Source: a virus. Taken from it: DNA of 64,000 bases. The stretch covers positions 1 to 64,000 of IMG/VR virus record IMGVR_UViG_3300046642_000884; one strand, given 5' to 3'. A program made the translations under genes and the position numbers. The stretch's first letter is position 1. Each line of letters opens with the position of its first letter. The notes beneath the pieces were generated by a model. That model made no database searches. It worked only from the letters and a program-made list of their open reading frames with translations, and was not told where the DNA came from. This document shows positions 12,058 to 49,277 of this stretch, in pieces.

Positions 12058-13098
12058 TCACGAATCTCGTAACTTCCGAAAATAATCGAGGTCGTCTTCG
12101 GTTTCGGATGCAGCCAGCTCAGGAAGCTTCTCGGCTTCCAACGGAGCAGTTCTTCCTTCGTCTTCCCATGGAGCGGATACTTGGGCATTTTCCCCTGAGT
12201 GATCATACTCCTTTTCGGGGGATTTCCACGGATCACTCTGTCCCTCAGCAACCTCATAGTTGCCGGTTCTATCAAGCGCCAGCACCTTGTTCAACCGTTC
12301 TTTCAGTTGATTATAGGTCTTGAACTTGGAAGGAGCTACAATCTCTTGCAGCGAATATTCCGACTTCCATATCGTCTCCAGCATATCTTCGTTGGATGAT
12401 AGGGCTCCACGTGGCTTCTTGACGCCAGATTCTCCCTCGACCAGGTCCCATTCTGACGAGTTATAGTTACGTTGTCCTTCGACCAGTCGAGCCTTCAGCT
12501 TAAAGTTGGCTCCGGTATATAGATCAAACGGGTTGAACTTTTCCACATCGGGGAACTTCGGGTTCTGCGCTTCTTCAATCTTATCCATAATGCGAGGACC
12601 ATACTTGAACAGGAACACCTTGCCGTTATTGGCCGGATTGGTTTGATCTTCCACCACATAGATATTGGAATAATAGCCGTTCTTTCGCTTGGAGCCGGGG
12701 GTAGGCGGCTTGGTAGTAAAATCTCCTGAGACAAATCGACGTCCCTCCGACTTTTCTCCTTCCGCCCATCGCTTTGAGTTATACTCAGAGAGCGGGTCCG
12801 CCGAACCTTCGGGGCGATCCTTAGTTCGGGTGGTCAGAGAGTTTTCGATATACCAGCCGCCGGGTCCCTTGAAGGCGTGTGAATACAGTTGAACAAACGG
12901 CTCGCCTTCGCCCTGTGGTTCTGGCAGGAACCTGATGACTGCATAGCCATTTCCGGTCTTATCGACGGTTAGTTTCCAAAAGCGGTTATCTTCATTTTCA
13001 TTATAGAAGTTGCCCTTGGACATTTGATTGAGTTTTTTGGTGAGTTGATCGAAACGATCTTGTCGGTTATTTTTTAGTTCTTGAAAGTTGCTTATCAT
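12058..13098 (-). CDS. 32: Single-stranded DNA-binding protein gp32, zinc-less
   Basis: 346 residues. FWKLTVDKTGNGYAVIRFLP, then YSNIYVVEDQTNPANNGKVF and the GANFKLK OB-fold block match T4 gp32; the C terminus is acidic (SETEDDLDYF) as needed for partner binding. The protein contains no cysteine at all, so the gp32 zinc site (His-Cys3) is absent; ENSLTTRTKD stands where that module would be. Strong own promoter upstream and a terminator downstream fit a highly expressed monocistronic gene. Confidence 0.93.
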   Translation of the reverse strand: MISNFQELKNNRQDRFDQLTKKLNQMSKGNFYNENEDNRFWKLTVDKTGNGYAVIRFLPEPQGEGEPFVQLYSHAFKGPGGWYIENSLTTRTKDRPEGSADPLSEYNSKRWAEGEKSEGRRFVSGDFTTKPPTPGSKRKNGYYSNIYVVEDQTNPANNGKVFLFKYGPRIMDKIEEAQNPKFPDVEKFNPFDLYTGANFKLKARLVEGQRNYNSSEWDLVEGESGVKKPRGALSSNEDMLETIWKSEYSLQEIVAPSKFKTYNQLKERLNKVLALDRTGNYEVAEGQSDPWKSPEKEYDHSGENAQVSAPWEDEGRTAPLEAEKLPELAASETEDDLDYFRKLRDS

Positions 13099-14343: not shown

Positions 14344-14436
14344 TTAAAACCCCATATCAAAAAGTAACTTCCCTAAAAATTGGCCTGTTACAAGCGCAAA
14401 AATCATATACAACATAAACCTCTCATTCCTGGTCAT
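14344..14436 (-). CDS. 30-residue membrane microprotein
   Basis: MTRNERFMLYMIFALVTGQF followed by LGKLLFDMGF: one hydrophobic helix. Overlaps the end of the gp59 gene by 14 bases; stop and next start are adjacent. Tight packing on one strand supports it as real. Confidence 0.5.
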   Translation of the reverse strand: MTRNERFMLYMIFALVTGQFLGKLLFDMGF

Positions 14437-15001
14437 TAAACCTTTCCATTAATATCTTCTTAAACTTATCGCTATCAATATTTAGGAAAGGTTGATACTT
14501 CGGAATAATAAGGCTTATCTCTTTCCAAACTATATCGTTATCTAATGTCTTATTCCAGGTCTGATAAAATTTCACTAACTGATTCAAGATAACAAGAGTA
14601 TCGAGCGAGATGTGTTCGCCAAGAAAGAGCCGAAGCGCATAAGGATGCTCGTTTTGCTTCATTATAAAGTTCTCATTAAAGTCCGGAAGTAGCTGTTTAA
14701 TCTCCTCCTGGAAGGTATAGGACAGACTCTCCCGTCGTTTCTTCCAGTTCTTATAGATTGTTAGTCCTTTGTCGGACAGAATATCGCCAGGCCAAATATG
14801 CGGGTTCAAGCTTAGATTAGCCAGCAAGAGTCCCTGGGCATCGGGGTGTTTGGTTATTTTCATTAGCTGATACTTATCGCGGCGCTTCGATATATCAGGA
14901 CGATACTTTAGCTCTCCCTTATACTTGAACCAGTCGTAAGAAGGTTGGGAGAAGTGTAGCTTGAGCGTCAGAAACAATCGAAGACAATCATTGGGAGTCA
15001 T
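14423..15001 (-). CDS. 59: Helicase loader gp59
   Basis: 192 residues from the ATG at 15001, chosen because the upstream microprotein's TGA overlaps it; T4 gp59 is 217. DWFKYKGELKYRPDISKRRD, then KYQLMK, LLLANLSLNPHIWPGDI and the C-terminal FLNIDSDKFKKILMERF match gp59, which loads the gp41 helicase on gp32-coated forks. Confidence 0.85.
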   Translation of the reverse strand: MTPNDCLRLFLTLKLHFSQPSYDWFKYKGELKYRPDISKRRDKYQLMKITKHPDAQGLLLANLSLNPHIWPGDILSDKGLTIYKNWKKRRESLSYTFQEEIKQLLPDFNENFIMKQNEHPYALRLFLGEHISLDTLVILNQLVKFYQTWNKTLDNDIVWKEISLIIPKYQPFLNIDSDKFKKILMERFNDQE

Positions 15002-15135
15002 CGCATGACTAATGCCAACATAAGACCTATAAGAACACCAAGCCACGATCCAAAAAATACGATGGTAATAGCAATAAGAAGTCGTCTTGTTTGACCAATA
15101 CTCTCTATCCAATCGGCAAAATCTTTAAATCTCAT
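14998..15135 (-). CDS. Small membrane protein upstream of gp59
   Basis: 45 residues: MRFKDFADWIESIGQTRR then one hydrophobic helix. TGA overlaps the gp59 ATG (ATGCGATGA), implying translational coupling. Confidence 0.6.
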   Translation of the reverse strand: MRFKDFADWIESIGQTRRLLIAITIVFFGSWLGVLIGLMLALVMR

Positions 15136-17140: not shown

Positions 17141-17340
17141 TTCTCAAATCCTTTCACTGGACGCACAGTTAATGGGCCTATTCCTAGCGCCCATTGGTTT
17201 TCCGACAAGTTTTTGACAAATTCCTCAGCAATGCTTTTATCACGACAAATAGCCAAAACACCACTTAGATCACCATAACAAATAGCATAATCAAATGGAT
17301 AAGAATATGTTAGAGGGGCTGTCTCAATTGTAACTTTCAT
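17137..17340 (-). CDS. Small unknown protein
   Basis: 67 residues, AICYGDLSGVLAICRDKSIA in the middle. ATGA overlap with the gp33 gene side. No domain seen. Confidence 0.55.
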   Translation of the reverse strand: MKVTIETAPLTYSYPFDYAICYGDLSGVLAICRDKSIAEEFVKNLSENQWALGIGPLTVRPVKGFEK

Positions 17341-17612
17341 TTCTTTTTCTTCCTTCGCTTTGGCTTCTTTTTGGGAGGGAGCTTTTTCAAAAGATTAAGC
17401 GCCTCGGCTTCGGCCTGTATTTTATTCTTGAACTCTGGATTGCTTTTAATCAAGTGGATAACTTGCTCATATTCTAAATTGCGTTTAGAGCAGTAATCAA
17501 AAATGCAGTCAAGATAACCGACATTAGTCTCTTTGACTTGTCGCTCAATCTCACTAACAAATGAGAAGTCTGGATTTAGTATTTGTGATATCTGATTATT
17601 GTCTGCTACCAT
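17337..17612 (-). CDS. 33: gp33-like late transcription coactivator
   Basis: 91 residues from the ATG at 17612, which overlaps the upstream TAA. YLDCIFDYCSKRNLEYEQVI then SNPEFKNKIQAEAEALNLLK matches the helix pattern of late promoter accessory proteins that bridge RNA polymerase and the sliding clamp. The tail is nearly all Lys/Arg. It suits the many TATAAATA boxes in this window. Confidence 0.7.
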   Translation of the reverse strand: MVADNNQISQILNPDFSFVSEIERQVKETNVGYLDCIFDYCSKRNLEYEQVIHLIKSNPEFKNKIQAEAEALNLLKKLPPKKKPKRRKKKK

Positions 17613-17830
17613 TATAAGGTTTTTGCCCAACGTTTTTTCTGGGCAATACTCATTTTCCTACGTTGTTCCAGCGGCTTCTTTTTTCCTCTTGTTGCGTCTG
17701 CCATCGCCTTGATATTTGCGGCAATAATAGGATTATTAATAGTTAATCCGCGATTCCAACCACCAAGATTATGATTGCCTCTATTTGCTTTGTTTGTTAT
17801 ATTGTGTTGTTTTATATAAAGATAATACAT
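17612..17830 (-). pseudogene. Remnant of GIY-YIG / NUMOD3 homing endonuclease
   Basis: 72 residues. The start YYLYIKQHNITN is the first strand of a GIY-YIG nuclease, but the YIG catalytic part is missing and the frame jumps to a NUMOD3-like DNA-binding end (EQRRKMSIAQKKRW). Best read as an internal deletion product; the short frame may still be translated, coupled to gp33 by TAATG. Confidence 0.6.
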
Positions 17831-17844
17831 TTATAAAAGTGGGA

Positions 17845-18150
17845 TTTTTCTGTTGCCAAGATAATCCCGAAACTCCGCTTAGCTGTTAGGCAGCCAAGGC
17901 AAGTGGGAACTGTTCGTCGTTCTCTATTTTACGAGCCACTCGGCCAGCGATATCGTCTCGGTTTTAGCTTCAGTGATGTTCGATCCTTTCACCCCCATCA
18001 GGAACACAAGAAATTTGCCTCGTTCTACTCTTACGTTAAGTTACTGATAAAAGTCGGAAGAACTTGCAATTCTTGCGCTCCTGGTGGAGGTGCAGGGAAT
18101 GAGCCCTGGTGACAAACACCTATTTTGAACGTCATCAACGATAAACAAGA
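17845..18150 (-). ncRNA. ssrA: tmRNA, circularly permuted (two-piece)
   Basis: On the minus strand an acceptor piece comes first: T-arm-like CAGGG(6)CCCTG at 18093-18108, acceptor strand CACCTCC, then A and CCA (18082-18092). After an 85-base spacer the coding piece starts GGGGGTG (17990-17996), which pairs with CACCTCC, followed by AAAGGATCGAAC, the D-loop analogue. Its tag frame, 17924 to 17886, reads ENDEQFPLALAA stop, directly after AAAATA, as in E. coli ANDENYALAA. The resume codon would be GAG. An RNA stem GGGATT/AATCCC and T-run follow. The acceptor-first order is that of alphaproteobacterial split tmRNAs. Confidence 0.85.
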
Positions 18151-18237
18151 CACACTAGGTTTATCCAGATTAGCATTATAGCCGTATGTGGCTGCTTTTA
18201 GTGGACGTCCTCTGAACTCCTAATGTATCCTATGATA

Positions 18238-18266
18238 TTTATATAGCATCCGGCCTTAGATGTCAA
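18238..18266 (-). promoter_or_regulatory. ssrA: Promoter of the tmRNA
   Basis: AACAGTTC then TTGACA (18261-18266), 17 bases, TATAAA (18238-18243) on the minus strand. Start expected near 18231; the acceptor piece lies downstream. Confidence 0.85.
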
Positions 18267-32405: not shown

Positions 32406-33857
32406 TTAGACACTTTCGAAGTTTATCTCGAATTCCCATAAGTTCGAAACATATTCCAAAGTTTCGTCTGCGTCGTCTTCGTGTAGCGGTCGCGCCGTCC
32501 TGAAGTGCTTGAGATAGAGAGTTCTATCGCCATTCAGATCGGCTCCAACTACCTGAATGTTCGGAATTGAATTGCTTCGCTCGTATCTTATCGAGAGCAG
32601 CTTGCGGATGTTGTCGTATCCAATCTCGTCGTGGATTTCGGTCACGGTAAAAAAGTCATCGTCTTCCTTGTCCTCGATAGAGAACAGCTTCATATCGCGA
32701 ATGACTTTTGGGCTTAGAAATTGAGCTAAGAAGGAAGAATCAACAAATCCGGCCGCGATTGATTTGGTAAAGTCTAGATAGTTGTAGTCCAAAGAAGTCG
32801 TTCCATAAAACAATTTGTCCTCCTCGGTTTGGTCTTTACAAGCACGCTTAATGTCGCGGAAGATGTTATAGCCTAGCGTATAAGGATTGATATCGACAGT
32901 GAGGCCTCGTTGGTTGATAACGCCCGAATGTAGATGTAAAAACTGCATATACGAACCGTCGTCGATATAGCCTCGTTCATAAAGCGTAGTCATTAGCTCC
33001 ATATGTATAAAGCTTGCGAAGCCCTCGTTGATGACTTTGTCCTTGGCTTGCGGGTAGAAGTATTGCGCAACCTTGCGGACAATACGAATGATTTCTCGTT
33101 TCCAGGGTGGTAACCATTTGGCGTTCTTCTCAATAAAGTAGAGCAGATTTTCTTCTGGCTTGGCCAGCATAACGCTATTTTCTTCTTTTTGTTCGATCTT
33201 GGGAACTGTGGCTTCCCATACTGCATCGAAGTTTTTGATACGTTCTTCGGTCAGTTTAGCCGCCAGATAGTCTTCGTCACTTTCCTCCTTCTTTTTGGTT
33301 CGGCGAGTAAAACTATCAATTCCGTAATCAGAGATTGCATGACAACAATCAAGCCAGTCCTCGACTTCGTCTTCTCCATACTTTTCTTCACACTTCTGAA
33401 TATAGGCTTTGGCAAACTTTAGGTAGTTGACAATAGCATCAGGTTCAGTGAACTCCTGGAACACAAAGTTGTTCTTGAATACAAAATTATGTCCAACGCT
33501 TGAGTGGCAAAGCACCATACACTGGGAAGTCATATCATTTTGTTCAAGAATATAGTTAATGCAGGGATTGGTGTTTAATACCATTTCAAGAGCCAGTCCC
33601 ATCACCCCTAGATTATAGCGCTTTTTGATTATCTCGAATTGCTTGCCGAAGCTCCAGTGGTTATAAAGAATAGGCACACCGATCGATACATAAGAGTTGA
33701 TCATCCCTTCAAAGTCGATAACCTCGATCTGGTTAGGATAGAGCGGCATTTTCCATTCGTGAGCAATGCCCTCGATCACGTCCATAACGTTTTTGATCTT
33801 TGGAATAGTCCAATCTTCGCCGGAGCGAAATAACGGAAATTTAGATTTATATACCAT
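32406..33857 (-). CDS. spoVR: SpoVR family protein
   Basis: 483 residues from the ATG at 33857 (overlaps the YeaH-like stop, TAATG). IPILYNHWSFGKQFEIIKKR (about 60-80), NEGFASFIHMEL and the LHSGVINQRGLTVDINPYTL block are SpoVR/YcgB hallmarks. SpoVR proteins are encoded with PrkA kinases in stress-response operons; molecular role unclear. Last gene of the three-gene operon. Confidence 0.92.
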   Translation of the reverse strand: MVYKSKFPLFRSGEDWTIPKIKNVMDVIEGIAHEWKMPLYPNQIEVIDFEGMINSYVSIGVPILYNHWSFGKQFEIIKKRYNLGVMGLALEMVLNTNPCINYILEQNDMTSQCMVLCHSSVGHNFVFKNNFVFQEFTEPDAIVNYLKFAKAYIQKCEEKYGEDEVEDWLDCCHAISDYGIDSFTRRTKKKEESDEDYLAAKLTEERIKNFDAVWEATVPKIEQKEENSVMLAKPEENLLYFIEKNAKWLPPWKREIIRIVRKVAQYFYPQAKDKVINEGFASFIHMELMTTLYERGYIDDGSYMQFLHLHSGVINQRGLTVDINPYTLGYNIFRDIKRACKDQTEEDKLFYGTTSLDYNYLDFTKSIAAGFVDSSFLAQFLSPKVIRDMKLFSIEDKEDDDFFTVTEIHDEIGYDNIRKLLSIRYERSNSIPNIQVVGADLNGDRTLYLKHFRTARPLHEDDADETLEYVSNLWEFEINFESV

Positions 33858-35083
33858 TATGACTTGCTCTTGAAAAGGTCTCGGAATAGCGGCCAAATTT
33901 CTCGGCTATGACGAACAATACTGGCTCGTAGTTTTGGGTTCTTCTTCTCTTGATAAACGTCCATTACCTTTGGCCAGGGGAAGGCGACGGCCTCTTGCTC
34001 AATCTGGATATAACCAAAAAACTGAACCAATGGCATTAGATCGTCAAGTAATTGTGAAACGTTTGGATTATCTTCAGTTGCGTTATCTCCATCAGTAATC
34101 TGAAGGAAGTATAGATTGGACTTGCTCGGACTATACTTGCTTTCAATCAATTGCTTGGCCAGCTCCAATGCTGTCGATATCACTGTGCCTCCAGTTTGGG
34201 TTGTTGTAAAGAACTCCTCCTCACCGACTTCATGAGCTTCAGCAGTATGAACAATCCATACCAATTCGACTCTTTGATATTTTTTTACCAGAAAGAGATA
34301 AAGCAAATAAAAGAATTTTCGAGCAATCGTTTTTTCGTGTTCTCCCAACGAACCTGAAATGTCCTGAATACAGAACATCGTTGCTGTTGTTGCAGGTTGT
34401 GGGTCTAACGCAAAGTAACGATAGCGTAGATCAAAGGTGTCGATATACGGTATGGCCTTTATTTTGCGTTCCAATTCTTCAATGCGGTCTTGATCAGGAT
34501 CGTCTTTTTCTTCTTCCTCGTGGATTTGGTGTTTGTATGGACCAACGAAAGCCATACGACGAAGGTAAGCGTTTTTCAGGGATTTGACGATTGATAATCG
34601 ACCAGGAGGGCCCTCGATTTGGTATCCAGCATTGACGCGAAGAAACTCATTGACTGTGGCCAGTTCCTTTTTGACGAGGTCCGGCAGTTCAAGGTCATTG
34701 AAAAAGTAGTTCAAGAACTCTTCGGGGGAGATTTGGACGATGAAATCGTCGTGCGAGCCGTCATCAGTAAGACTGCCGCGGCGGCCTGAACCGTCTTCTT
34801 TTTCGGGTTTTGGAATACGATCGCCTCGCTTAAACTCGACATTTCCAGTAACGATATGGTTTTCGGTTTCGCTTCGATCATACGAAAATTTTGGTTCGGC
34901 AAGCTTGCTGTGCGGAACTCTGACTTTTTGATCAGATTGAGCACGAGTATCGAACTTGCCCTCCCCCAGGATTGCGGGAAGCGAGTTTTTGATACTTCCA
35001 CGAATCCGGTTGATGAACTTTCGTCGATTATCGGCGGATCGGTGGGCTTTGTTGGTGGTTCTTGAGTCGATGATTACGGCCAT
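33857..35083 (-). CDS. yeaH: YeaH / DUF444 family protein
   Basis: 408 residues. Basic N terminus, KFSYDRSETENHIVTGNVEF-type middle, then a VWA-like domain: MFCIQDISGSLGEHEKTIAR (about 238, MIDAS-like DxSxS) and FTTTQTGGTVISTALELAKQ. Start overlaps the PrkA stop. In bacteria YeaH works with the YeaG/PrkA kinase. Confidence 0.92.
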   Translation of the reverse strand: MAVIIDSRTTNKAHRSADNRRKFINRIRGSIKNSLPAILGEGKFDTRAQSDQKVRVPHSKLAEPKFSYDRSETENHIVTGNVEFKRGDRIPKPEKEDGSGRRGSLTDDGSHDDFIVQISPEEFLNYFFNDLELPDLVKKELATVNEFLRVNAGYQIEGPPGRLSIVKSLKNAYLRRMAFVGPYKHQIHEEEEKDDPDQDRIEELERKIKAIPYIDTFDLRYRYFALDPQPATTATMFCIQDISGSLGEHEKTIARKFFYLLYLFLVKKYQRVELVWIVHTAEAHEVGEEEFFTTTQTGGTVISTALELAKQLIESKYSPSKSNLYFLQITDGDNATEDNPNVSQLLDDLMPLVQFFGYIQIEQEAVAFPWPKVMDVYQEKKNPKLRASIVRHSREIWPLFRDLFKSKS

Positions 35084-36996
35084 CAGGTGTATTTACGCAC
35101 CCTCATAAACCACTCGACTATCAATCGAGCCTGTCGCGGAGTATATCCCAGGTCCTTCATTCGAGCTACAAAGTCGTCGTGCTTCTTACGATCCTCATCA
35201 GATGATTTCGGAGAAAACGAGATGATCGGCAAAAAGGCTTCGGTGGTGTCGAGAACTTGTCTCTCGATCACATCACGCATCTTTGCATAAGCATCCCATT
35301 TCGGCATTTCGCCCTTATGGCCGGCTTTGTAGCGCAACACGAATGCGACGATTTCATAACGCCACTCGCGAGGATTCGAGATATTCAAGCCTGCCTTCTC
35401 GACCTTTTCTAGCGAGGAATTGATCGCGGCCTTGTCGAGCATAGTTTGAGTATCAGGATCACGATAGTCGGTTTCGCGCAGCCAGGCATCAGCCCAATCA
35501 ACATACTTGTTGAATGTTGTCTGGCAATAATCACCATGAGCCGCTAATAGCGCTGATCGGATTTGCTTCTCAACGAACTCCAGATATTTTTCGTGGAGAA
35601 CACTGTCGAGGAAGCCGAGCAGCTTGGCTTCATTATCCTTGGGGAACTGCTCCTTCATAATCTCCGTCCGAAGCAGATACATCAGATGGATAGGATTGGC
35701 TGCGGCTTCTTCGTGATCGACATTAAAGGTCTTGGAAAGAACTCGAAAGGCGAACCGTGTTGATACTCCGGTCATCCCTTCGGTGACCCCCGCCTCATCC
35801 TTATATTCGGAGATGGGCTTGGCGTTTGGATCGGTGTCCTTCAGGTTTTCCCCATCATAGACCCGCAGCTTGGAATAGAGTGTGGAGTTTGAGGTGTCGT
35901 GCAGCCGCGAAAGCACAGCGAACTTGGACAACATTTCGAGGGTCCAAGGCGCACAAGGAGCGGCACGAAGAGTGGAGTTAGAGATTAGCTTTTCGTAAAT
36001 CCTGGCTTCTTCCTTAGAACGAAGACAATAGGGCACTTTGACCAAGGAGATACGATCAACGAATGGTTTATTGGTGGACTTGTTCTTGAACTGCATCCAT
36101 TCTTCTTCGTTCGAGTGGGCGGCAATAATAGCCTCGAATGGGATGGAGCCGATATTCTCGGTTCCGTTGAAGTTACGCTCCTGGGTGGCGGTAAGCAGTG
36201 GATTGAGCATCTTTAGCGGGGCCTTGAACATTTCCACGAAGTCAACCAAGCCACGGTTGCCGCGACAGAGGCCTCCCGAGTAGTTATAGGCATAGGGATG
36301 ATTCTGCGAGTAGCTTTCAAGCTTGCGAATGTCGATTTTGCCAACCAGCGTTGAGATGTCGGTATTGTTTTCGTCGCCAGGTTCAATCTTGGAAATGGCG
36401 ACTTGATCCAGAATGGATGGATAAAGCTTTTCGACCTTGAGTTGGCCGAGGTCGCCCTTGAGGTCTTTCAGTTTCTGTACTAGCCACGGTGATGGACAAG
36501 TGCGAATGTAGTAGGATGGGATTTTGTATTCTTTCTCGATACGAGAGAGGTCACTGCCCCAGAATACGTTTAGAGGATTATCGAATACCGGAGAGTCTTG
36601 CACGACATAGATTGGCTCTTGTTCCATCAGCAGCTTGAGTTTTTCGACTAGCGATGACTTGCCGCCGCCCACAGGTCCTAGCATATAAAGAATCGACTTA
36701 GATTCTTCGAGGTTCTGAGCGTTGTATTTGATTACATTGACCAGATTGTCGATCACATCCTCGAGTCCATAGAAGTCAGAGAACGTTTCATAGAGCTTGA
36801 TCTTGCGGTTGGAGAAGATGCGCGAGAGGATGGGATCATCTTGAGTATCGATGATCTTTGGTTTACCAATAGCTTTAAGCAGCCGCTCGGCTGCAGTGTT
36901 GTATGATGATGGTTCCGCCCGACAGCGGTCTAGATACTCTCGGAACGAGATTATTTCAGGTTTAGCAGAGTATTTTGTAACGAGAGAATTCAACAT
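35083..36996 (-). CDS. prkA: PrkA family serine protein kinase
   Basis: 637 residues, full family length. AAA+ part: LYMLGPVGGGKSSLVEKLKL (about 104-123) is Walker A and the NRGLVDFVEMFK segment follows; the C-terminal PrkA domain is present (TGVSTRFAFRVLSKTFN). Start at ATG 36996; a TTG two codons earlier and a 15-codon frame at a well-spaced upstream ATG make initiation uncertain. Promoter with internal palindrome and a CTAAATA box upstream. Confidence 0.93.
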   Translation of the reverse strand: MLNSLVTKYSAKPEIISFREYLDRCRAEPSSYNTAAERLLKAIGKPKIIDTQDDPILSRIFSNRKIKLYETFSDFYGLEDVIDNLVNVIKYNAQNLEESKSILYMLGPVGGGKSSLVEKLKLLMEQEPIYVVQDSPVFDNPLNVFWGSDLSRIEKEYKIPSYYIRTCPSPWLVQKLKDLKGDLGQLKVEKLYPSILDQVAISKIEPGDENNTDISTLVGKIDIRKLESYSQNHPYAYNYSGGLCRGNRGLVDFVEMFKAPLKMLNPLLTATQERNFNGTENIGSIPFEAIIAAHSNEEEWMQFKNKSTNKPFVDRISLVKVPYCLRSKEEARIYEKLISNSTLRAAPCAPWTLEMLSKFAVLSRLHDTSNSTLYSKLRVYDGENLKDTDPNAKPISEYKDEAGVTEGMTGVSTRFAFRVLSKTFNVDHEEAAANPIHLMYLLRTEIMKEQFPKDNEAKLLGFLDSVLHEKYLEFVEKQIRSALLAAHGDYCQTTFNKYVDWADAWLRETDYRDPDTQTMLDKAAINSSLEKVEKAGLNISNPREWRYEIVAFVLRYKAGHKGEMPKWDAYAKMRDVIERQVLDTTEAFLPIISFSPKSSDEDRKKHDDFVARMKDLGYTPRQARLIVEWFMRVRKYT

Positions 36997-37032
36997 TGTC
37001 AAAATGCATTTTCCTCGGTGTTATTTAGTCGT

Positions 37033-41346: not shown

Positions 41347-41570
41347 GATACTCCCTCTTTATACCATTTAATAAAATTTCGCATTTGCATTATGAATAAA
41401 ATAGATGATAAAAATATTCCACCCCATAATCGAGGAGGAATAAACACGCCAATCCATAACGCCTCAGATAAAGCTGCCAACAAAGGACCACTTTTACGAT
41501 GATTTCCCATTAAAAACAGACCTAACAACAAAATTCCGGCGGCGACGAATTGTAATAATAAATATAACAT
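41340..41570 (-). CDS. PnuC-like short membrane protein
   Basis: 76 residues with three hydrophobic helices (3-20, 29-44, 50-62) and a charged end MRNFIKWYKEG. Similar to one repeat of PnuC-type transporters; role uncertain. Confidence 0.5.
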   Translation of the reverse strand: MLYLLLQFVAAGILLLGLFLMGNHRKSGPLLAALSEALWIGVFIPPRLWGGIFLSSILFIMQMRNFIKWYKEGVSW

Positions 41571-42334
41571 TATCTTGCAAATACCTCATAGCCTGTTTCG
41601 TTGATTCCAATTGTTGCTTCAAATTGAGCTGCTAGGCTTTTTCCCAGAACAGTCCAGCCATCATGCAATACCTTCTGTTTAGTGTGATGTAATAAAATGA
41701 TGGGTTCAACAGTAAAACAATCACCAGGATGCATTCTAACCTCGGCGTTATATCCCTCAGTCAATACGTGTGGGATAGAAGGATTTTCATGAAAGTTTTG
41801 GCCGATACCATGGCCAACAAAGTCTTTCGCCACATACATTTTATTATGAGCTATATATTCCTCGATATATTTTCCAATATCGCCAATCTTGCCTTCAGGG
41901 AAACATTGCTGGATTCCTATCTGGAGCGCGCATTCGGCTACCTCTACCAAATCTCTGGTCTTTTGTGGAATCTGTCCGACTATATAAGTCCGACAAGCGT
42001 CGCCGTGATAGCCGTCTTTTGATTTAAAGGTAATATCAACCGATACAATATCACCATCGTTCAGCAATTCGCCTTCGGCTGGAATACCGTGGCAGAGGAC
42101 CTCGTTTATAGAGGTGCAACAATATCCTGGGAACGGTGGCATTTCTCTATCAAATCGGTAACCATATTGGGCGTTTTTTAGATCATTGTCTTCGCCAAAA
42201 TTCTTAACGAATTGGTCAATGTTTCCAGTCGATATACCAGGTTTAATAAAAAACTTTAGTTCATCAAGACATTGGCTTGTTAATTTTCCAATCTCTCGCA
42301 TCTTCGAGAACTTATACGCGTAGTCAATTAGCAT
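41570..42334 (-). CDS. map: Methionine aminopeptidase type I
   Basis: 254 residues. CTSINEVLCHGIP, VSVDITFKSKDGYHGDACRT (metal ligands D and D), DFVGHGIG (His), FTVEPI (Glu) and QFEATI (Glu) give all five metal ligands. It would trim initiator Met from nascent phage proteins; one-base overlap with neighbours. Confidence 0.93.
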   Translation of the reverse strand: MLIDYAYKFSKMREIGKLTSQCLDELKFFIKPGISTGNIDQFVKNFGEDNDLKNAQYGYRFDREMPPFPGYCCTSINEVLCHGIPAEGELLNDGDIVSVDITFKSKDGYHGDACRTYIVGQIPQKTRDLVEVAECALQIGIQQCFPEGKIGDIGKYIEEYIAHNKMYVAKDFVGHGIGQNFHENPSIPHVLTEGYNAEVRMHPGDCFTVEPIILLHHTKQKVLHDGWTVLGKSLAAQFEATIGINETGYEVFAR

Positions 42335-43139: not shown

Positions 43140-43211
43140 TGGTACTGCGCTAACGAATTGAACGTTACTGAAATTGGTTCACAGCCAACCCCCTGTCCTC
43201 CAGCACGCAGC
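43140..43211 (-). tRNA. tRNA-His (GTG)
   Basis: Acceptor GCTGCGT/GCGCAGT, anticodon stem GTTGG/CCAAT with loop CTGTGAA, T-arm TAACG-TTCAATT-CGTTA, A then CCA. The D-arm is weak (CTG/CAG only) and the usual extra 5' G cannot be judged. Confidence 0.6.
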
Positions 43212-43218
43212 ATTAATT

Positions 43219-43293
43219 TGGTAGCGGAAGTAGGAATCGAACCTACTCATTAGCGGATATGAGCCGCCTGTTCTCCCACTGAACTATACCGCC
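43219..43293 (-). tRNA. tRNA with CAT anticodon (Met or Ile2)
   Basis: D-stem GTTC/GAAC, anticodon stem GGCGG/CCGCT with loop CTCATAT, T-arm GTAGG-TTCGATT-CCTAC, CCA. Acceptor GGCGGTA/TTCCGCT has one mismatch. Confidence 0.8.
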
Positions 43294-43863
43294 TTAATCT
43301 CCATAATAGTCATCACAGATATTGACAGGAACCCATTCATAATTCCAATACCATCCTGTACAGGAATCAGGGTCGTCAAAATAGACCTCGTATCCGTTCC
43401 ACCAGTTATGAAAGCCGAAGTGCCGTTCGTGGAAGAAGAAGTCCCCGTGTTCGTGATGAAACTGTCCATGATGGAAAAAGTGATCGCCGTGGTCCTCGTG
43501 ATTGAAATCGGGTCCGTGGTGAATATTACCATGATCCTCGTGATGGAATGGTTGTGGATTAAAATGCGGCGCAACGTGTGGCACTACATGTGGTTGAAAA
43601 TGAGGTTGTGGCTGATAATGGGGTTGTGGGTTATAGTGTGGTTGCGGATTATAATGCGGTTGTGGTTGGGGATGAAATCCCCCGCCTCCTCCGCCATGAA
43701 ACTGGCCTCCGCCACCTCCACCGTGGAATTGTCCACCTCCGCCGCCTCCGCCGTGATAGCCGCCTCCACCACCGCCTCCCCCGCCGTGACCGCCTCCACC
43801 GTGTTGGGCGAAAGCTGTTGAAGCCATCAGAACTACTGCTAATGCGATAAGTGTCTTTCTCAT
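43294..43863 (-). CDS. Secreted Gly/His-rich protein
   Basis: 189 residues: signal peptide (1-19, ASTAFAQ), GGGGGGG runs, PQPHYN repeats, then a His-rich part ending WNGYEVYFDDPDSC. Possible metal binding or surface coat. Stop lies one base after the tRNA-Met 5' end. Ribosome site AAGGAGAAAA. Confidence 0.7.
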   Translation of the reverse strand: MRKTLIALAVVLMASTAFAQHGGGGHGGGGGGGGGYHGGGGGGGQFHGGGGGGQFHGGGGGGFHPQPQPHYNPQPHYNPQPHYQPQPHFQPHVVPHVAPHFNPQPFHHEDHGNIHHGPDFNHEDHGDHFFHHGQFHHEHGDFFFHERHFGFHNWWNGYEVYFDDPDSCTGWYWNYEWVPVNICDDYYGD

Positions 43864-43877
43864 TTTTTCTCCTTAAA

Positions 43878-43951
43878 TGGCGGGGGATGAAGGAATCGAA
43901 CCCTCGAAAACAGATTCAAAGTCTGTTGTCTTACCACTAAACGAATCCCCT
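43878..43951 (-). tRNA. tRNA-Gln (TTG)
   Basis: Anticodon arm ACAGA-CTTTGAA-TCTGT, T-arm GAGGG-TTCGATT-CCTTC, CCA encoded. First acceptor pair is A-C. Confidence 0.85.
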
Positions 43952-43954
43952 ATA

Positions 43955-44029
43955 TGGAACGGACGGTGGGACTCGAACCCACTTCTCTGGAATGGAAACC
44001 CAGGGCAACAGCCTATATACCACGCCCGC
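43955..44029 (-). tRNA. tRNA-Gly (TCC)
   Basis: Acceptor GCGGGCG/CGTCCGT, anticodon arm CTGGG-TTTCCAT-TCCAG, T-arm GTGGG-TTCGAGT-CCCAC, CCA encoded. Confidence 0.85.
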
Positions 44030-44034
44030 GTTAT

Positions 44035-44190
44035 TTAATGTAATAGATGTGCGCCTTGTGCGCCTGCGAAAATCAAGCTTGCGACCCAAAACGCTAATCC
44101 AGCCGAAACTAAATTCCAGCGGGCACCAACATTAAAGGCACCTAATACAAAACATACAAAAGCAAAAACAAGTAATACTAATCCTAACAT
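44035..44190 (-). CDS. Small two-helix membrane protein
   Basis: 51 residues, hydrophobic almost throughout (MLGLVLLVFAFVCFVLGAFN). AAAGGAGAAAT site and ATAAATA upstream. Confidence 0.6.
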   Translation of the reverse strand: MLGLVLLVFAFVCFVLGAFNVGARWNLVSAGLAFWVASLIFAGAQGAHLLH

Positions 44191-44217
44191 AATATTTCTC
44201 CTTTGGTTTATTTATAT

Positions 44218-44304
44218 TGGCGGAATGCCTCGGTTTCGATCCGAATACCTCTCGGTACGATGGACTTAGCAGGTCCCCTCAGCTCCTTGCTGATTGGTCA
44301 CTCC
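44218..44304 (-). tRNA. tRNA-Ser (GCT)
   Basis: Anticodon loop CTGCTAA on GGAC/GTCC, long variable arm, T-stem TTCGG/CCGAG with loop ATCGAAA, CCA encoded. Confidence 0.75.
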
Positions 44305-44308
44305 GTAA

Positions 44309-44416
44309 TTACTCATCAGGACCACCGCCAGGCCTGCCATGAAATGGTCCACTGCCGCTGGTGCCACCCGCTGCAAGAACCAATACAAGAAAAAATATTA
44401 TCAGAAACCAGAACAT
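44309..44416 (-). CDS. 35-residue membrane protein with Gly-rich tail
   Basis: MFWFLIIFFLVLVLAAGGTS then a Gly/Pro tail; AAGGAGTGACC site. Confidence 0.55.
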   Translation of the reverse strand: MFWFLIIFFLVLVLAAGGTSGSGPFHGRPGGGPDE

Positions 44417-44432
44417 TTTGGTCACTCCTTAT

Positions 44433-44509
44433 TGGGGCTCTAGGCGAGAATCGGACTCGCATTCTTCCATTACTGTTACCTGTTTAGGAGACAGGACAGA
44501 TACTAGAGC
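44433..44509 (-). tRNA. tRNA-Arg (CCT), nested D-arm
   Basis: Acceptor GCTCTAG/CTAGAGC, anticodon arm CCTGT-CTCCTAA-ACAGG, T-arm GCGAG-TCCGATT-CTCGC, CCA encoded. Only TATCTGT separates acceptor and anticodon stems; the other D-strand AGA, with TGG, lies after the anticodon arm. Confidence 0.75.
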
Positions 44510-44512
44510 AAT

Positions 44513-44595
44513 TGGCGATCGCCGCAGGATTCGGACCCGCATTTTCAGCTCCAATTACGGTTACTGAGGTAGAAGCTCAGCTCGGCTAGGCGACC
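44513..44595 (-). tRNA. tRNA-Arg (TCT), nested D-arm
   Basis: Acceptor GGTCGCC/GGCGATC, anticodon arm CTGAG-CTTCTAC-CTCAG, T-arm GCGGG-TCCGAAT-CCTGC, CCA. TAGCCGAG precedes and GTAATTGGAGCTGAAAAT follows the anticodon arm; AGC pairs GCT. Confidence 0.8.
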
Positions 44596-44814
44596 TTAAA
44601 ACCCTCGAATAACTTTCATCGCGTTATCGATAGCTCGTACTGCACAATCGTCGTTTGGATGTCTCAGTATATGCTTATTAAGATGACGGACCTTGTTATG
44701 CTCGCGGGTATGGCGAAGCTTATAAAGCTTTGCGTAATCCTGACCACGATGGGCGCGGCCGTGTTTGCGCTGCTTCTTAGACTTTTTTGCCTTTTTAAGT
44801 TTGGCAACAACCAT
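44596..44814 (-). CDS. Small, highly basic protein
   Basis: 72 residues; first 45 are mostly Lys, Arg and His (KLKKAKKSKKQRKHGRAHRG). AAGGAGAAAAG site; expressed from the 44893 promoter. Likely nucleic-acid binding by charge; it adjoins a tRNA, so RNA binding is possible. Confidence 0.65.
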   Translation of the reverse strand: MVVAKLKKAKKSKKQRKHGRAHRGQDYAKLYKLRHTREHNKVRHLNKHILRHPNDDCAVRAIDNAMKVIRGF

Positions 44815-44892
44815 GACTTTTCTCCTTTTGTTTAGGTTACTTCGTCATAGCTGTTGCTCCTTTGAATAGTGTTAAAGTAGTCGTTCATCTTA

Positions 44893-44921
44893 TTTATAAC
44901 AGGACCTACACCAGATGTCAA
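44893..44921 (-). promoter_or_regulatory. Early promoter
   Basis: AACAGTTG, TTGACA (44916-44921), 17 bases, TATAAA (44893-44898), 79 bases before the basic protein gene. Confidence 0.8.
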
Positions 44922-44931
44922 CAACTGTTTT

Positions 44932-45006
44932 TGGTTGGGGATCGTGGATTTGAACCACGAAATTCGGAGTCAGAGTCCGATGGTTTGCCAGTTAGCCTAA
45001 TCCCCA
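44932..45006 (-). tRNA. tRNA-Gln (CTG)
   Basis: Acceptor TGGGGAT/ATCCCCA, anticodon arm TCGGA-CTCTGAC-TCCGA, T-arm CGTGG-TTCAAAT-CCACG, CCA encoded. Confidence 0.9.
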
Positions 45007-45023
45007 ATAAAGTAAATATAACG

Positions 45024-46145
45024 ATGAAAAGACTTCGATCAATTATCAGTGAACTGTCGTTGCCCGTAGGCGTTAACGATGCCGAAGTCCGATTAAAGGC
45101 TGCTGGATGGCGACGTCTGGGCGGTGGTATGTTTGCCTCTGTTTATGGCAGGCAGGGTAAACCTTATGTCTTGAAGCTGTTTCAGGACCGAGACCACGCC
45201 TATAAACGGTTCCTGAAATTGGTCCAATCGCAGCCGGATAATCCACATTTTCCTAAATTACGCGGATTGCCTATGCGGGTTAATAAGAATTATACAGCAG
45301 TCCGAATGGAGAAACTTCAGCCATATAATGATCGGAGTGAGCGGCAACAAGAGGACACAAAAGATATCAATACTTATATATACACTATGAGGGATTTACG
45401 CAGGGAGGTTTCTGATCTTAAGTTTAAAGGAAATCGTAACGACAACACTATTCGGCGGATTAAAGAATTAAATAAAAAACTAGAACCAATATTTCACGGT
45501 CGAGCACAATTAGCCAAGGCCTTAGATGATATACAGAAGCACGTTATTGATCCAACTGGTGCTAATTTTGATCTACACGATGCTAATATTATGTGGCGAG
45601 GAAAAGTACCAGTATTAACTGATCCGGTAGCTTATGGAAATAGTGCTGAGGAAGCTGCGCCACCTCGTGCGCCTCGCCAATTCCAGTTTGTTTTTGATCA
45701 CCCGATTGTCCGCCCCCCAGCACCAAAGCCGTTACGACAAGTTGTACGTCCTGTAGAACCCCCAGAACATTTGCGAAAAAGTTTATTTGCGCGCGGCGGA
45801 TTTGGCCGGCCAGTTGGCAGAAGGGAAGCTGCAGCGGCTCTGAATAATGCTATTAAACAAGTTAAGCGTCATGTTGGTAAAAACAAAATTGTCTATGATC
45901 TATTAATCAATCCGAAGGGAACTACTAAAGAAGAAATTCTCGCCGCAACTGGTTGGAAACAAGTCTCAATAGCAGGAATGGCTCATGCAATGGGGCTTGA
46001 AGTGCGAAAAGTTAAAAGACGGAATCTACGTGGTAGAAAAGAAACACGATATTTTGGTTATATTCCATCCCATACAATAGTGATAAAAAAACGGGGACGG
46101 AATTTACGGGACATACTTCCTAGAAGAGCAGCTATAGATTTTTAA
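45024..46145 (+). CDS. Kinase-like protein with DUF3489-like tail
   Basis: 373 residues on the plus strand, start at ATG 45024. GGGMFASVYGRQGKPYVLKL (34-53) resembles a kinase Gly-loop and lysine, and NFDLHDANIMWRGKVPVLTD (about 180-199) the catalytic HD-N and DP motifs. After a Pro-rich linker, IVYDLLINPKGTTKEEILAA then TGWKQVSIAGM is a DUF3489-type winged helix. May phosphorylate a host or phage target; the fusion is unusual. Confidence 0.6.
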   Translation: MKRLRSIISELSLPVGVNDAEVRLKAAGWRRLGGGMFASVYGRQGKPYVLKLFQDRDHAYKRFLKLVQSQPDNPHFPKLRGLPMRVNKNYTAVRMEKLQPYNDRSERQQEDTKDINTYIYTMRDLRREVSDLKFKGNRNDNTIRRIKELNKKLEPIFHGRAQLAKALDDIQKHVIDPTGANFDLHDANIMWRGKVPVLTDPVAYGNSAEEAAPPRAPRQFQFVFDHPIVRPPAPKPLRQVVRPVEPPEHLRKSLFARGGFGRPVGRREAAAALNNAIKQVKRHVGKNKIVYDLLINPKGTTKEEILAATGWKQVSIAGMAHAMGLEVRKVKRRNLRGRKETRYFGYIPSHTIVIKKRGRNLRDILPRRAAIDF

Positions 46146-46165
46146 GATGAATAGGGTATTGATAA

Positions 46166-46249
46166 TGGCGATCCACGCAGGACTCGAACCCGCATTTTCA
46201 GCTCCAGTTACGGTGTCATGCGTTCGAAGCGCACGTCGGCTAGTGGACC
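46166..46249 (-). tRNA. tRNA-Arg (TCG), nested D-arm
   Basis: Acceptor GGTCCAC/GTGGATC, anticodon arm GTGCG-CTTCGAA-CGCAT, T-arm GCGGG-TTCGAGT-CCTGC, CCA. TAGCCGAC before and ACCGTAACTGGAGCTGAAAA after the anticodon arm. Confidence 0.8.
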
Positions 46250-46250
46250 A

Positions 46251-46333
46251 TGGCGATCACGAGGAGATTCGAACTCCTATTTCCAGCTCCAGTTACGGTT
46301 ACTAACTTCGCAGGCTAGTTCGGCTACGTGACC
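46251..46333 (-). tRNA. tRNA-Arg (GCG), nested D-arm
   Basis: Acceptor GGTCACG/CGTGATC, anticodon arm CTAGC-CTGCGAA-GTTAG, T-arm AGGAG-TTCGAAT-CTCCT, CCA. Same TAGCCGA ... TGGAGCTG arrangement. Confidence 0.8.
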
Positions 46334-46369
46334 TAATTATAAGGTAATCTACCTTTTTTCCAACCAAGA

Positions 46370-46447
46370 TCAAGCTTCAGACAAATCTAAATGATTTTGT
46401 CTTTCTTGTTTGGAAAGATTTATATAGTTTTCAGTAATTTCAAGCAT
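46370..46447 (-). pseudogene. N-terminal remnant of HNH endonuclease
   Basis: 25 codons: MLEITENYINLSKQERQNHL then DLSEA stop. Matches the start of the HNH protein at 52439 (KSKTERQSHLNLLEDC). The catalytic part is absent. Confidence 0.55.
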
Positions 46448-46459
46448 AATAAATAACCT

Positions 46460-46657
46460 GTGCTTATTAAAATTCAACGTCGAGAATTGGTAACAGTAGG
46501 TATTTTATACTACAGGCCTGACTTTGTCAATATCTTACAGGAATTTTATTGGCAGATCGACGATGAAATTCCACAATTACCTAGAGTCCATCGGTTCCTT
46601 AACTATTGGAAAACCGATATTGATGCGGTCATTCGTAGTATCGAGGTCTCGTATTAA
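46460..46657 (+). CDS. usg: Usg family protein
   Basis: 65 residues, GTG start. LVTVGILYYRPDFVNILQEF, YWQIDDEIPQLPRVHRFLNY then WKTDIDAVIRSIEV matches Usg, a small family essentially restricted to Alphaproteobacteria. Function unknown. ATAAATA ends four bases before the GTG. Confidence 0.75.
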   Translation: MLIKIQRRELVTVGILYYRPDFVNILQEFYWQIDDEIPQLPRVHRFLNYWKTDIDAVIRSIEVSY

Positions 46658-46944
46658 TTTTCAAGCCAATAACCCGGATTTTGTATAACGATGATCATTC
46701 GTCTTGATTCAACATTACTGTTGAATTCTTTGCCCCCTACCATTACCTAACATCCATTTAAGAAATGAGAATGCACACTCGTCGGAGAACTTGGGGTTGC
46801 TTCAAGTAGAGATTATCGCGTTTCACTTTACTCGTCTCTGTGATTCTAATCCTCACCTCACGGTGGACGGGAGTTACCCGCTACTTGTGCATTAGAAGTC
46901 CGGAGTTTCCTAGCCGTAGCTCGATCATCTAGGCTTGAAAAGAT
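46658..46944 (-). ncRNA. rnpB: RNase P RNA
   Basis: About 285 bases. P1: TTTTCAAGCC at the 5' end pairs with GGCTTGAAAA at the 3' end. P2: GATGATC/GATCATC. P3-like AGC-TACG-GCT. Conserved block CTAGGAAACTCCGGAC (cf. GAGGAAAGTCCGGGC), CGGGTAACTCCCG, CACC-GTGA-GGTG, ACAGAGA, and near the 3' end ACAAAATCCGGGTTATTGG (cf. ACAGAACCCGGCTTATCGG). Shorter than bacterial RNAs (350-400). It follows tRNA-Phe and tRNA-Glu with four bases or fewer between, so one transcript may supply both ribozyme and substrates. Confidence 0.9.
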
Positions 46945-47021
46945 TGGTAGGGGTAAGGAATGAATCAATTCCTGTTTCCGTCTTGAGAGAACGGTGTCCT
47001 GAGATACTAGACGATACCCCC
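46945..47021 (-). tRNA. tRNA-Glu (CTC)
   Basis: Acceptor GGGGGTA/TACCCCT, body TATCGTCTAGTATCTCAGGA as in Glu tRNAs, anticodon arm CCGTT-CTCTCAA-GACGG, CCA encoded. T-arm AGGAAT-TGATTC-ATTCCT has an unusual six-base loop. Confidence 0.8.
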
Positions 47022-47024
47022 AAA

Positions 47025-47099
47025 TGGTGCCTTAGGATGGAATCGAACCACCGACGCCATGCTCTTCAGGCATGCGCTCTACCACTGAGCTACTAAGGC
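47025..47099 (-). tRNA. tRNA-Phe (GAA)
   Basis: Canonical: GCCTTAG/CTAAGGC, GCTC/GAGC, CATGC-CTGAAGA-GCATG, GGTGG-TTCGATT-CCATC, CCA. Confidence 0.95.
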
Positions 47100-47908
47100 T
47101 TTTGTTCTACTATTGTTAAATTTATATCATCACTTTCATGAAGACAAATTAGACTTCGATTATTATGATAGGTTTTATAACCATAATCTTCTATGAAATC
47201 TTTAATTGGTTGTTCTCCAACTTTATGATATTCCGCATAAATGATCGGATGATGGCGATGAATAGTTGAATCACAACCTTTTAGAGCATCAAGTTCCATT
47301 CCTTCAATGTCTAGTTTTATTAGATCAACTCTTTCCAAATTCAAGGAATCAATAGTAAAGCTAGCGACTTTGGTTAAATGGTCATCATAATTTACGTCTT
47401 GACCTATTATTTCTCGGGCTGGAAGTGGTTTAATTTCAAGCGAACCAAACGATGAAGGAATAGTATAGTCCAACGTTGGAATTTCTAGTAGCCCAACTTT
47501 CTCGCCAACTGCGACATTCATAGCTGTGGCATTAAATACATTATTAAGTGCTATATTTCCGGCGAGAGCATAAAATATTCGCTCTTGTGCTTCGAAAGCA
47601 ATTACATTACCCCAGCCAGTCATATATTTGGCCAACTCGACTGTGAAAACTCCAATATTAGCTCCACAATCTATAGCAACAACTCCATCGCCACGGCTAG
47701 CTCTTCGATATGTAATAGCATCTTTGAAAAGCTGAGCTTCAAACATCCCATATTCAGAATCTCTTAAAAGTTCGTAACCAACACCATATTCATTGGTTAC
47801 ATCTTTACCTTCGTGTTCTACAGTGATTTTGAAATCATCTAAATGACTTAAGATCATAGGTCCATGATTAGTAGCAGCAAGAACAAAAACAGCAGGTCGT
47901 TTGGTCAT
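47093..47908 (-). CDS. FkbM-family methyltransferase
   Basis: 271 residues. AIDCGANIGVFTVELAKYMT (78-97) SAM loop and RVDLIKLDIEGMELDALKGC (about 198-217) FkbM signature. N terminus MTKRPAVFVLAATNHGPMIL is an extra segment. ATGA overlap with the amidinotransferase-like gene; stop overlaps tRNA-Phe. Confidence 0.85.
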   Translation of the reverse strand: MTKRPAVFVLAATNHGPMILSHLDDFKITVEHEGKDVTNEYGVGYELLRDSEYGMFEAQLFKDAITYRRASRGDGVVAIDCGANIGVFTVELAKYMTGWGNVIAFEAQERIFYALAGNIALNNVFNATAMNVAVGEKVGLLEIPTLDYTIPSSFGSLEIKPLPAREIIGQDVNYDDHLTKVASFTIDSLNLERVDLIKLDIEGMELDALKGCDSTIHRHHPIIYAEYHKVGEQPIKDFIEDYGYKTYHNNRSLICLHESDDINLTIVEQKP

Positions 47909-48732
47909 GATTTATTATCCAATCTAAGGGTTAGACAAGAGGCGGCTCCTCCCGCTTTTATAAAGGCTGAAAAATCGGTTTGTATAACAGTATAACCTCG
48001 CACAGTCAGTTCGTTAAACAATTCCTCGGATATACCATTATTGACGATCAAACTATCATTAACTGCTACTAAATTGCAGGCAAACGCCAAAGCGTCGGCT
48101 TCGGAAACGAAAATGTTTTCTTGTAAAGATAAGATTTTGCGTGAATCGGTATCAAATGCTTCAGGATTATTTAGTATCTCGCCGTGCGGCAGAATACACA
48201 TCGCCATATCGAGATGATAAAAACGGGGATCGATCAATTGTAAAGGTTTAACTGGTTTGTGAAAGGCCTTAATAACTTCAGCGGTTGCCTCAATATCACT
48301 CCGAATTCCGTGGCCTAACCAAAATGTTTTTCTGGTGGAATCCCATAAACAGTCTCCAGCTCCCTCGAATGGAATATATCTCCCATAATAAGCCGTAAAA
48401 TATACGTTGTCTATAAACAGTGATTTATAAAAGATACGATACCATCGTGCTTCTTCGGTTTGTCTTTCAGGATGTACAAACGATGATGCTAACGCTTTAT
48501 TATCAAGAACAACACCAGCATTAGCGACAAAACACATATCAGGACAGTCTGGTTGGCCGTGTTCTACTATAACTTTTCCTCCAGCATCTTCTATTTTACC
48601 TTTTAGCTGGTTCCATTGTTGTTGTGCTAGCTGGCTATAATCTAGTTTCCATTCATCCGGGTGCATCCAAGGATTTATTGAATAATCAACTCGGAAGTAT
48701 TCTGGTCGGACCATTAGGAAGGTAGGTTGCAT
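47905..48732 (-). CDS. Amidinotransferase / DDAH-like enzyme
   Basis: 275 residues. CPDMCFVANAGVVL (62-75), EGAGDCLWD (123-131), FYHLDMAMCILPHGEIL (176-192, catalytic His), and AGGAASCLTL near the end (catalytic Cys) match the arginine-modifying enzyme superfamily (dimethylarginine hydrolase, arginine deiminase-like). It could modify arginine or a guanidino compound; rare in phages. Confidence 0.8.
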   Translation of the reverse strand: MQPTFLMVRPEYFRVDYSINPWMHPDEWKLDYSQLAQQQWNQLKGKIEDAGGKVIVEHGQPDCPDMCFVANAGVVLDNKALASSFVHPERQTEEARWYRIFYKSLFIDNVYFTAYYGRYIPFEGAGDCLWDSTRKTFWLGHGIRSDIEATAEVIKAFHKPVKPLQLIDPRFYHLDMAMCILPHGEILNNPEAFDTDSRKILSLQENIFVSEADALAFACNLVAVNDSLIVNNGISEELFNELTVRGYTVIQTDFSAFIKAGGAASCLTLRLDNKS

Positions 48733-48745
48733 AATATATCCTTAT

Positions 48746-48819
48746 TGGTGCGGGCTGCGGGAGTTAAACCCGCGCCATCGCGTTGGCAACGCGAGAGACT
48801 ATCGTAATCCTTAGCCCGC
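48746..48819 (-). tRNA. tRNA-Gly (GCC)
   Basis: GCGGGCT/AGCCCGC, anticodon arm TCGCG-TTGCCAA-CGCGA, T-arm GCGGG-TTTAACT-CCCGC, CCA. Confidence 0.88.
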
Positions 48820-48828
48820 ATTATTAAA

Positions 48829-48902
48829 ACTTGGCAGTTTCACATACTCTCTCTTAGCTGCTCTATCCTATGTCTTCAGGTGACAAACGAGCAGTACCAA
48901 GT
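48829..48902 (-). other. Structured tRNA-sized element, unassigned
   Basis: Closing stem ACTTGGT/GCCAAGT and inner CTGCTC/GAGCAG, enclosing CCT/AGG; no CCA or T-arm. Confidence 0.4.
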
Positions 48903-49171
48903 TATTCTTTTGGTGTAAATTCTTGCAGCGCCTTGTCCGAACAAATATAATCATACTTGAGCTGACCTTTAAACTCTTCCTTTAATTGATTTTCAACATA
49001 GGCATGACCAGATTCTTTATCGGCAGCAAATACTGGACTATCCAAGAATTGTTGACATGATTCGGCTGTTGGAAAAGCTTTGGCTTGGTATTGTAGGGCG
49101 CCAAACTGTGTGCCAGCAGGCCCAACAGGAGATACAATTAACGTGGTTAATAATACAAAGATATGGAACAT
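48902..49171 (-). CDS. Small exported protein
   Basis: 89 residues with a hydrophobic N terminus (MFHIFVLLTTLIVSPVGPAG) and two Cys. YQAKAFPTAESCQQFL resembles 61813 (NYPTLNDCKLAIV), a possible paralogue pair. Confidence 0.6.
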   Translation of the reverse strand: MFHIFVLLTTLIVSPVGPAGTQFGALQYQAKAFPTAESCQQFLDSPVFAADKESGHAYVENQLKEEFKGQLKYDYICSDKALQEFTPKE

Positions 49172-49204
49172 AATTTACTCCTTTCGTTTTCCTTACCCTA
49201 ATAG

Positions 49205-49277
49205 TGGTGGCAGAGGAGTGAATCGAACACTCGTGACGTGGCTTATGAGACCTCGCGGGATACCAATCCTCCCTGCT
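49205..49277 (-). tRNA. tRNA with CAT anticodon (Met)
   Basis: Anticodon arm GAGGT-CTCATAA-GCCAC (one mismatch), T-arm GAGTG-TTCGATT-CACTC, acceptor AGCAGGG/CTCTGCC with a first-pair mismatch as in initiators, CCA. Confidence 0.75.

Follow-up and report, generated by a model that had tools for sequence, protein, structure and literature searches.

Is a split tmRNA gene in a T4-like phage a working gene of that phage, and what do its unusual loops mean? The locus lies in a stretch of 64,000 nucleotides (the window), positions 1 to 64,000 of IMG/VR virus record IMGVR_UViG_3300046642_000884. The source record comprises 184,965 bases and carries T4-like gp23, gp32, gp33 and gp59 along with T4-like head and replication genes. 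A sequence-only reading of the window had proposed a circularly permuted phage tmRNA at 17845-18150. Searches by cmsearch with tmRNA and alpha_tmRNA models were positive and bore out this assignment: RF01849 (alpha_tmRNA) matched 18190-17838 with 53.4 bits (gathering score 50; E = 4.9e-12 for the 64-kb window) and RF04321 (tmRNA_permuted) matched 18143-17886 with 52.7 bits (gathering score 47; E = 1.9e-7 for the 64-kb window). Both scores exceed their cut-offs, by a small margin, and together with the E-values this excludes a chance match. The gene, which occupies 18190-17838 on the minus strand, is a two-piece (circularly permuted) tmRNA of alphaproteobacterial type; the element was thus correctly located at first, but its full RF01849 extent is larger. 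ARAGORN missed it, though the program called 26 tRNAs in the window. The gene consists of the following parts:

18082-18190, minus strand: acceptor piece with CCA at its end (RF01849 match, RF04321 from 18143; the 5' boundary is that of the model match)
18137-18143, minus strand: distal 5' strand of helix 2, TATCGTT, with partner GACGATA at 17957-17951 (RF04321 alignment)
18115-18120, minus strand: proximal 5' strand of helix 2, GGTGTT, with partner AACATC at 17980-17975 (RF04321 alignment)
18093-18108, minus strand: T-arm CAGGG-CTCATT-CCCTG with a T-loop of 6 nt, usually 7 (sequence)
18082-18092, minus strand: acceptor 3' strand CACCTCC (18092-18086), discriminator A and CCA (18084-18082) (sequence)
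17997-18081, minus strand: spacer of 85 nt, predicted to be removed in processing (sequence)
17835-17996, minus strand: coding piece (Rfam matches; end placed at the 3' hairpin and T-run)
17990-17996, minus strand: acceptor 5' strand GGGGGTG, forming 7/7 pairs with 18092-18086 (sequence)
17980-17989, minus strand: shortened D-loop AAAGGATCGA, 2 nt less than AAATAGGATCGA (sequence comparison)
17934-17945, minus strand: small pre-tag hairpin GGCC-GAGT-GGCT (sequence; comparison with the IMG/VR locus L342)
17886-17924, minus strand: tag frame ENDEQFPLALAA-stop with resume codon GAG and A at -4 (sequence)
17841-17868, minus strand: 3' hairpin GGGATT...TTGGCAACAGAA...AATCCC followed by a T-run (TTTT) (Rfam alignment, relatives)

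The acceptor piece lies 5' of the coding piece, ends in CCA, and is joined to it by a 7-bp acceptor stem spanning the spacer. The upstream acceptor piece, the pairing of GGGGGTG with CACCTCC and the spacer of 85 bases had all been described before and were recovered with every pair intact. The stem GGGGGTG/CACCTCC contains G3-U70 next to A73 and hence the alanine identity, since G3-U70 together with a discriminator A is the identity rule for tmRNA (PMC3968760). Furthermore, the 3' hairpin with a TGGCAACAGAA loop, a trait of RF01849, is present as TTGGCAACAGAA on a GGGATT/AATCCC stem; it is an alphaproteobacterial signature and, together with the T-run, probably a terminator. As judged by the curated models, the gene is a member of the permuted tmRNAs which departs from them at the elbow.

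Comparison with more than 100 relatives revealed covariation in the acceptor stem, the T-stem and the 3' hairpin. The acceptor stem is paired at 7/7 positions in the listed loop variants and the T-stem at 5/5 positions in 125/125 relatives; the 3' hairpin occurs with 11 distinct stem sequences in 12 relatives with a 6-nt T-loop and with 72 in 107 relatives with a 7-nt T-loop. A crude test of helix 2 across the relatives gave 5.0 bp as compared to 4.76 bp in shuffles, which is not above shuffles; the evidence for helix 2 is therefore the Rfam alignments and the 6 and 7 bp of the window tmRNA itself.

The tag frame, claimed earlier to follow AAAATA, was confirmed at 17924-17886: the codons GAG AAC GAC GAA CAG TTC CCA CTT GCC TTG GCT GCC TAA encode ENDEQFPLALAA, which ends in LALAA, a proteolysis-type end. 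Among 117 distinct viral tags, position -4 is A in 109, window included, and LAA forms the end in 95. Glutamate is the first residue in 1/117, the window's own tag; the GAG resume codon is indeed as unusual as had been remarked. Tags of viral two-piece tmRNAs also include ANDNFAPSGYALAA. A pseudoknot (PK1) before the tag is usual in tmRNA, though it is absent from some phage relatives. The lack of this pseudoknot and of covariation had been named as what would speak against the gene; covariation was found, whereas the pseudoknot stayed unsupported, the best H-type candidate before the window tag being no better than shuffles (z +0.29), a value compatible with a weak or tertiary-stabilised knot. 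The usual pseudoknot is present in some relatives (L339, L495), and about eight phage relatives have almost no space for it, their tag starting approximately 27-31 nt past the D-loop. Viral two-piece tmRNAs with a tag about 30 nt past the D-loop and scarcely room for PK1 are L230, L247, L259 and L276. The pre-tag hairpin of the window is shared with L342 (GGTC-GAGC-GACT), with a compensatory C-G/T-A change and the common pattern GGYC-GAGY-GRCT. In the window tmRNA this small hairpin occupies the place where a clear PK1 would be expected.

The most informative feature is the T-loop, which had already been called unusual and which marks a recurring subtype. In the window tmRNA the T-loop CTCATT has 6 nt in place of the usual 7, and 2 nt fewer stand ahead of the D-loop GG; because both loops replace the usual form, we class the RNA as a variant with a compact elbow. 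Viral contigs were scanned three times, with a variable-length D-region, with a short D-loop only and with a 6-nt T-loop only, so that no scan was conditioned on both loops. After near-identical cores had been merged, 141 distinct tmRNA cores were available. Cores with a 6-nt T-loop have a D-gap of 2 (n = 13) or 3 (n = 2), and cores with a 7-nt T-loop a D-gap of 4 (n = 124) or 3 (n = 2). The short D-loop is thus found in 15/15 cores of the former and the normal one in 124/126 of the latter kind. Besides the window, 12 distinct viral tmRNAs combine the 6-nt T-loop with a D-gap of 2 and two combine it with a D-gap of 3, all with intact tags. One locus, L250:5267 (reverse complement), has the 6-nt T-loop TTCGAA and a D-gap of 3, not 2; gp33, gp59 and gp32 were not found near its tmRNA, and it may have reached the compact elbow independently.

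In a gp32/gp59 tree comprising 54 rows, both loop traits coincide throughout. They shift together at least three times: where branches are supported, 3/3 independent pairs changed jointly, and on the best tree 6/6 changes did so. Three independent pairs are too few for significance in a sign test, and exchange of tmRNA genes between phages could inflate the number of independent changes; hence co-adaptation of T-loop and D-loop is strongly suggested, yet unproven. According to a review, SmpB binding requires contacts between D-loop and T-loop (PMC3968760); a matched change of both loops therefore points to selection and argues against decay.

We also searched bacteria and isolated phages for this elbow. 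The normal D-region pattern was present in 107/385 alphaproteobacterial genomes and the short pattern was found as a tmRNA in 0/385; a 6-nt T-loop pattern gave no tmRNA in 190 alphaproteobacterial genomes nor in 200 genomes sampled from the phylum. Since some letters are fixed in these patterns, the absence from bacteria is not absolute. Single pattern hits in bacterial genomes (L463, L612, L613, L614) are not tmRNAs. Most hits of a short-D-loop scan of genome contigs were in Streptomyces, and those checked included no tmRNA. BLAST of the tmRNAs with 6-nt T-loops against isolated phages returned no match with such a loop and one weak hit, Streptomyces phage Francob; the isolated phages RcXuper, RcSimone-Hastad, Cp1R7A-A1, DSS3P8 and DLP6 have T-loops of 7 nt. 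As far as literature and sampled genomes show, the coupled compact elbow appears to be new, and it was seen here only in viral contigs.

The tmRNA gene follows a putative promoter and precedes gp33-gp59-gp32, all of them on one strand:

18236-18266, minus strand: putative promoter with TTGACA, a 17-nt spacer and TATAAA at 18266-18238, running into TATAAATA (sequence)
17337-17630, minus strand: gp33, late-transcription coactivator (Pfam PF16805), second ORF downstream of the tmRNA (Pfam; synteny)
14423-15112, minus strand: gp59 helicase loader, conserved neighbourhood (homology; synteny)
12058-13098, minus strand: gp32 single-strand DNA-binding protein, conserved neighbourhood (homology; synteny)

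We take TATAAATA at this promoter to be the T4 late-promoter box. Promoters of the TTGAC type precede 83/155 distinct viral tmRNAs as compared to 1.2% of shuffled upstream regions. Using gp33, gp59 and gp32 of the window, we searched the tmRNA-bearing viral contigs, comprising 28 loci with a 6-nt and 141 loci with a 7-nt T-loop. Matches to gp33, gp59 and gp32 were obtained at 20/28, 17/28 and 14/28 of the former and at 31/141, 36/141 and 30/141 of the latter loci, and at both kinds of loci every match lies 3' of the tmRNA and shares its strand. The conserved locus and the enrichment of promoters show that this is a standing phage gene, a conserved part of the T4-like replication locus and no stray host fragment; its role in infection is thereby testable.

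A gene of this general type was known already: 53 of 133 distinct phage tmRNAs have been reported as two-piece forms (PMC9004378), and our acceptor/D-region pattern recovered at least 120 viral stretches, nearly all two-piece tmRNAs. Likewise, dozens of viral contigs and, among isolated phages, Pelagibacter phage Mosig (PMC9004378) show this arrangement of the locus; a phage two-piece tmRNA is therefore not new in itself. Mosig is also T4-like, carries its two-piece tmRNA 5' of gp33 in the same orientation and has the order SsrA-gp33-...-gp59-...-gp32 of the window, but it differs by a 7-nt T-loop (TGCAACT), a longer D-loop and a different tag. The T4-like Methylophilales phage Melnitz has a two-piece ssrA 5' of gp33 on the same strand as well; it was reported with a glutamine riboswitch (PMC9004378), whereas an Rfam scan found none in the window. 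With alphaproteobacterial tmRNA (RF01849; Caulobacter type) the window shares the permuted order, the acceptor stem, the GGATCGA D-region, the TTGGCAACAGAA 3' hairpin and the LAA tag; the alphaproteobacterial genes sampled have a longer D-loop, none of them a short one, whereas the window tmRNA has a short D-loop and no significant PK1. The IMG/VR loci L339, L340 and L342 likewise combine the compact D-loop and a 6-nt T-loop with gp33/gp32 nearby; their T-loops are TTCAAT/TTCAAC in place of CTCATT and their tags begin with A. By loops and pre-tag hairpin, L342 comes nearest to the window.

The window phage itself is without close kin, given that relatives of its gp23 reach at most 59% identity. 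The closest isolated phage by gp23 is Stenotrophomonas phage DLP6 (54%), and by gp59 the closest are Sinorhizobium phages (about 40% identity); the Sinorhizobium phages phiM12, phiN3 and phiM7 yielded no permuted tmRNA. A gp59-based search for related loci found none, nor did any close relative sharing the tmRNA sequence turn up. An exact search with the tag DNA matched a protein gene only, and matches to the loose pattern AACGAC...TGGCAACAG arose mostly by chance. DLP6 (L622, KU682439.2:102838-103059) carries a permuted tmRNA of 136.8 bits, which adjoins a tRNA cluster and is apparently unannotated. The gammaproteobacterial host group of this phage is not known for permuted tmRNA.

Taken together, the window probably encodes a functional phage trans-translation RNA that would use host SmpB and carries a co-adapted compact elbow. 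The anatomy of the gene, its conserved locus and the coupling of its loops are established by these data; we infer its expression, processing, charging, SmpB use and role in infection as follows. The T4-like phage probably infects bacteria in which SmpB can work with tmRNA of the alphaproteobacterial type; the record itself yielded no SmpB. A single transcript would start at the sigma70-like promoter, the 85-nt spacer would be excised by RNase P and 3'-processing enzymes, and acceptor stem and helix 2 would hold the two pieces together. Host AlaRS could charge the RNA via G3-U70 and A73, and host SmpB would bring it to stalled ribosomes, where (A)ENDEQFPLALAA would be added to the protein; the LAA end should direct this protein to host Clp proteases. 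The probable benefit is that ribosomes are kept free while mRNA is degraded in infection. The compact elbow, with its 6-nt T-loop and a D-loop 2 nt shorter, arose or spread several times among such phages. In a further-reaching and rather unlikely version, the elbow is a form evolved in phages that alters recognition of the tmRNA by SmpB, by the ribosome or by some factor of the host, and in the window phage the phage-encoded RNase P RNA (46654-46941) may mature the tmRNA, giving a partly self-supplied ribosome-rescue module.

Alternatively, the RNA might be transcribed and fold, yet serve to tie up the host's SmpB or inhibit the host's trans-translation instead of tagging proteins. The altered SmpB-binding elbow would suit such a decoy, and a phage-borne tmRNA relative, from mycobacteriophage DS6A, was reported to inhibit endogenous tmRNA (PMC11915505). 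This inhibitor is described there as being without a tag frame, whereas the window tag is complete and ends in LAA like most viral tags; a decoy would have no need of a degradation tag, and we regard this explanation as improbable. That the gene is a decaying copy of host origin, its low score and odd loops being damage, is very improbable: scores near the cut-off, the GAG resume codon and the weak PK1 would fit decay, but both loop changes recur jointly in the other viral tmRNAs with intact tags, the gene occupies the conserved gp33-gp59-gp32 locus, and stems, tag, promoter and terminator are intact. Finally, tmRNA genes are common integration sites of prophages (PMC11915505, PMC9004378), and a prophage could in principle have picked up part of a host tmRNA, or the contig could be a chimera; this is extremely improbable, as the gene is complete, the surrounding record spans 185 kb with T4-like genes for head and replication, and the flanking phage genes follow the order seen in the isolated phage Mosig.

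The coupled shortening of T- and D-loop amounts to a natural compensatory experiment on the SmpB-bound elbow, and the compact form could be used to probe the range of loop lengths tolerated by SmpB and by the ribosome. Furthermore, many phage two-piece tmRNA genes escape ARAGORN, which misses 7/28 loci with a 6-nt and 40/141 loci with a 7-nt T-loop.

Several further elements were observed on the minus strand of the window. ARAGORN called an array of 26 tRNAs at 43140-62915; Rfam gave one more tRNA-like match, at 46948-47021, that ARAGORN did not call. Inside this phage tRNA array, a bacterial class A RNase P RNA (RF00010) was identified at 46654-46941 with 148.7 bits (cut-off 100); such an RNA was present in 0/37 other phage or viral records searched. 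Its occurrence here is already unusual as such, and it is possibly linked to tRNA and tmRNA maturation. Three neighbouring genes at 32406-37002, with matches to SpoVR, DUF444 (YeaH-like) and PrkA serine kinase, constitute a bacterial operon in a phage, and an ORF at 41570-42334 resembles methionine aminopeptidase by its sequence.
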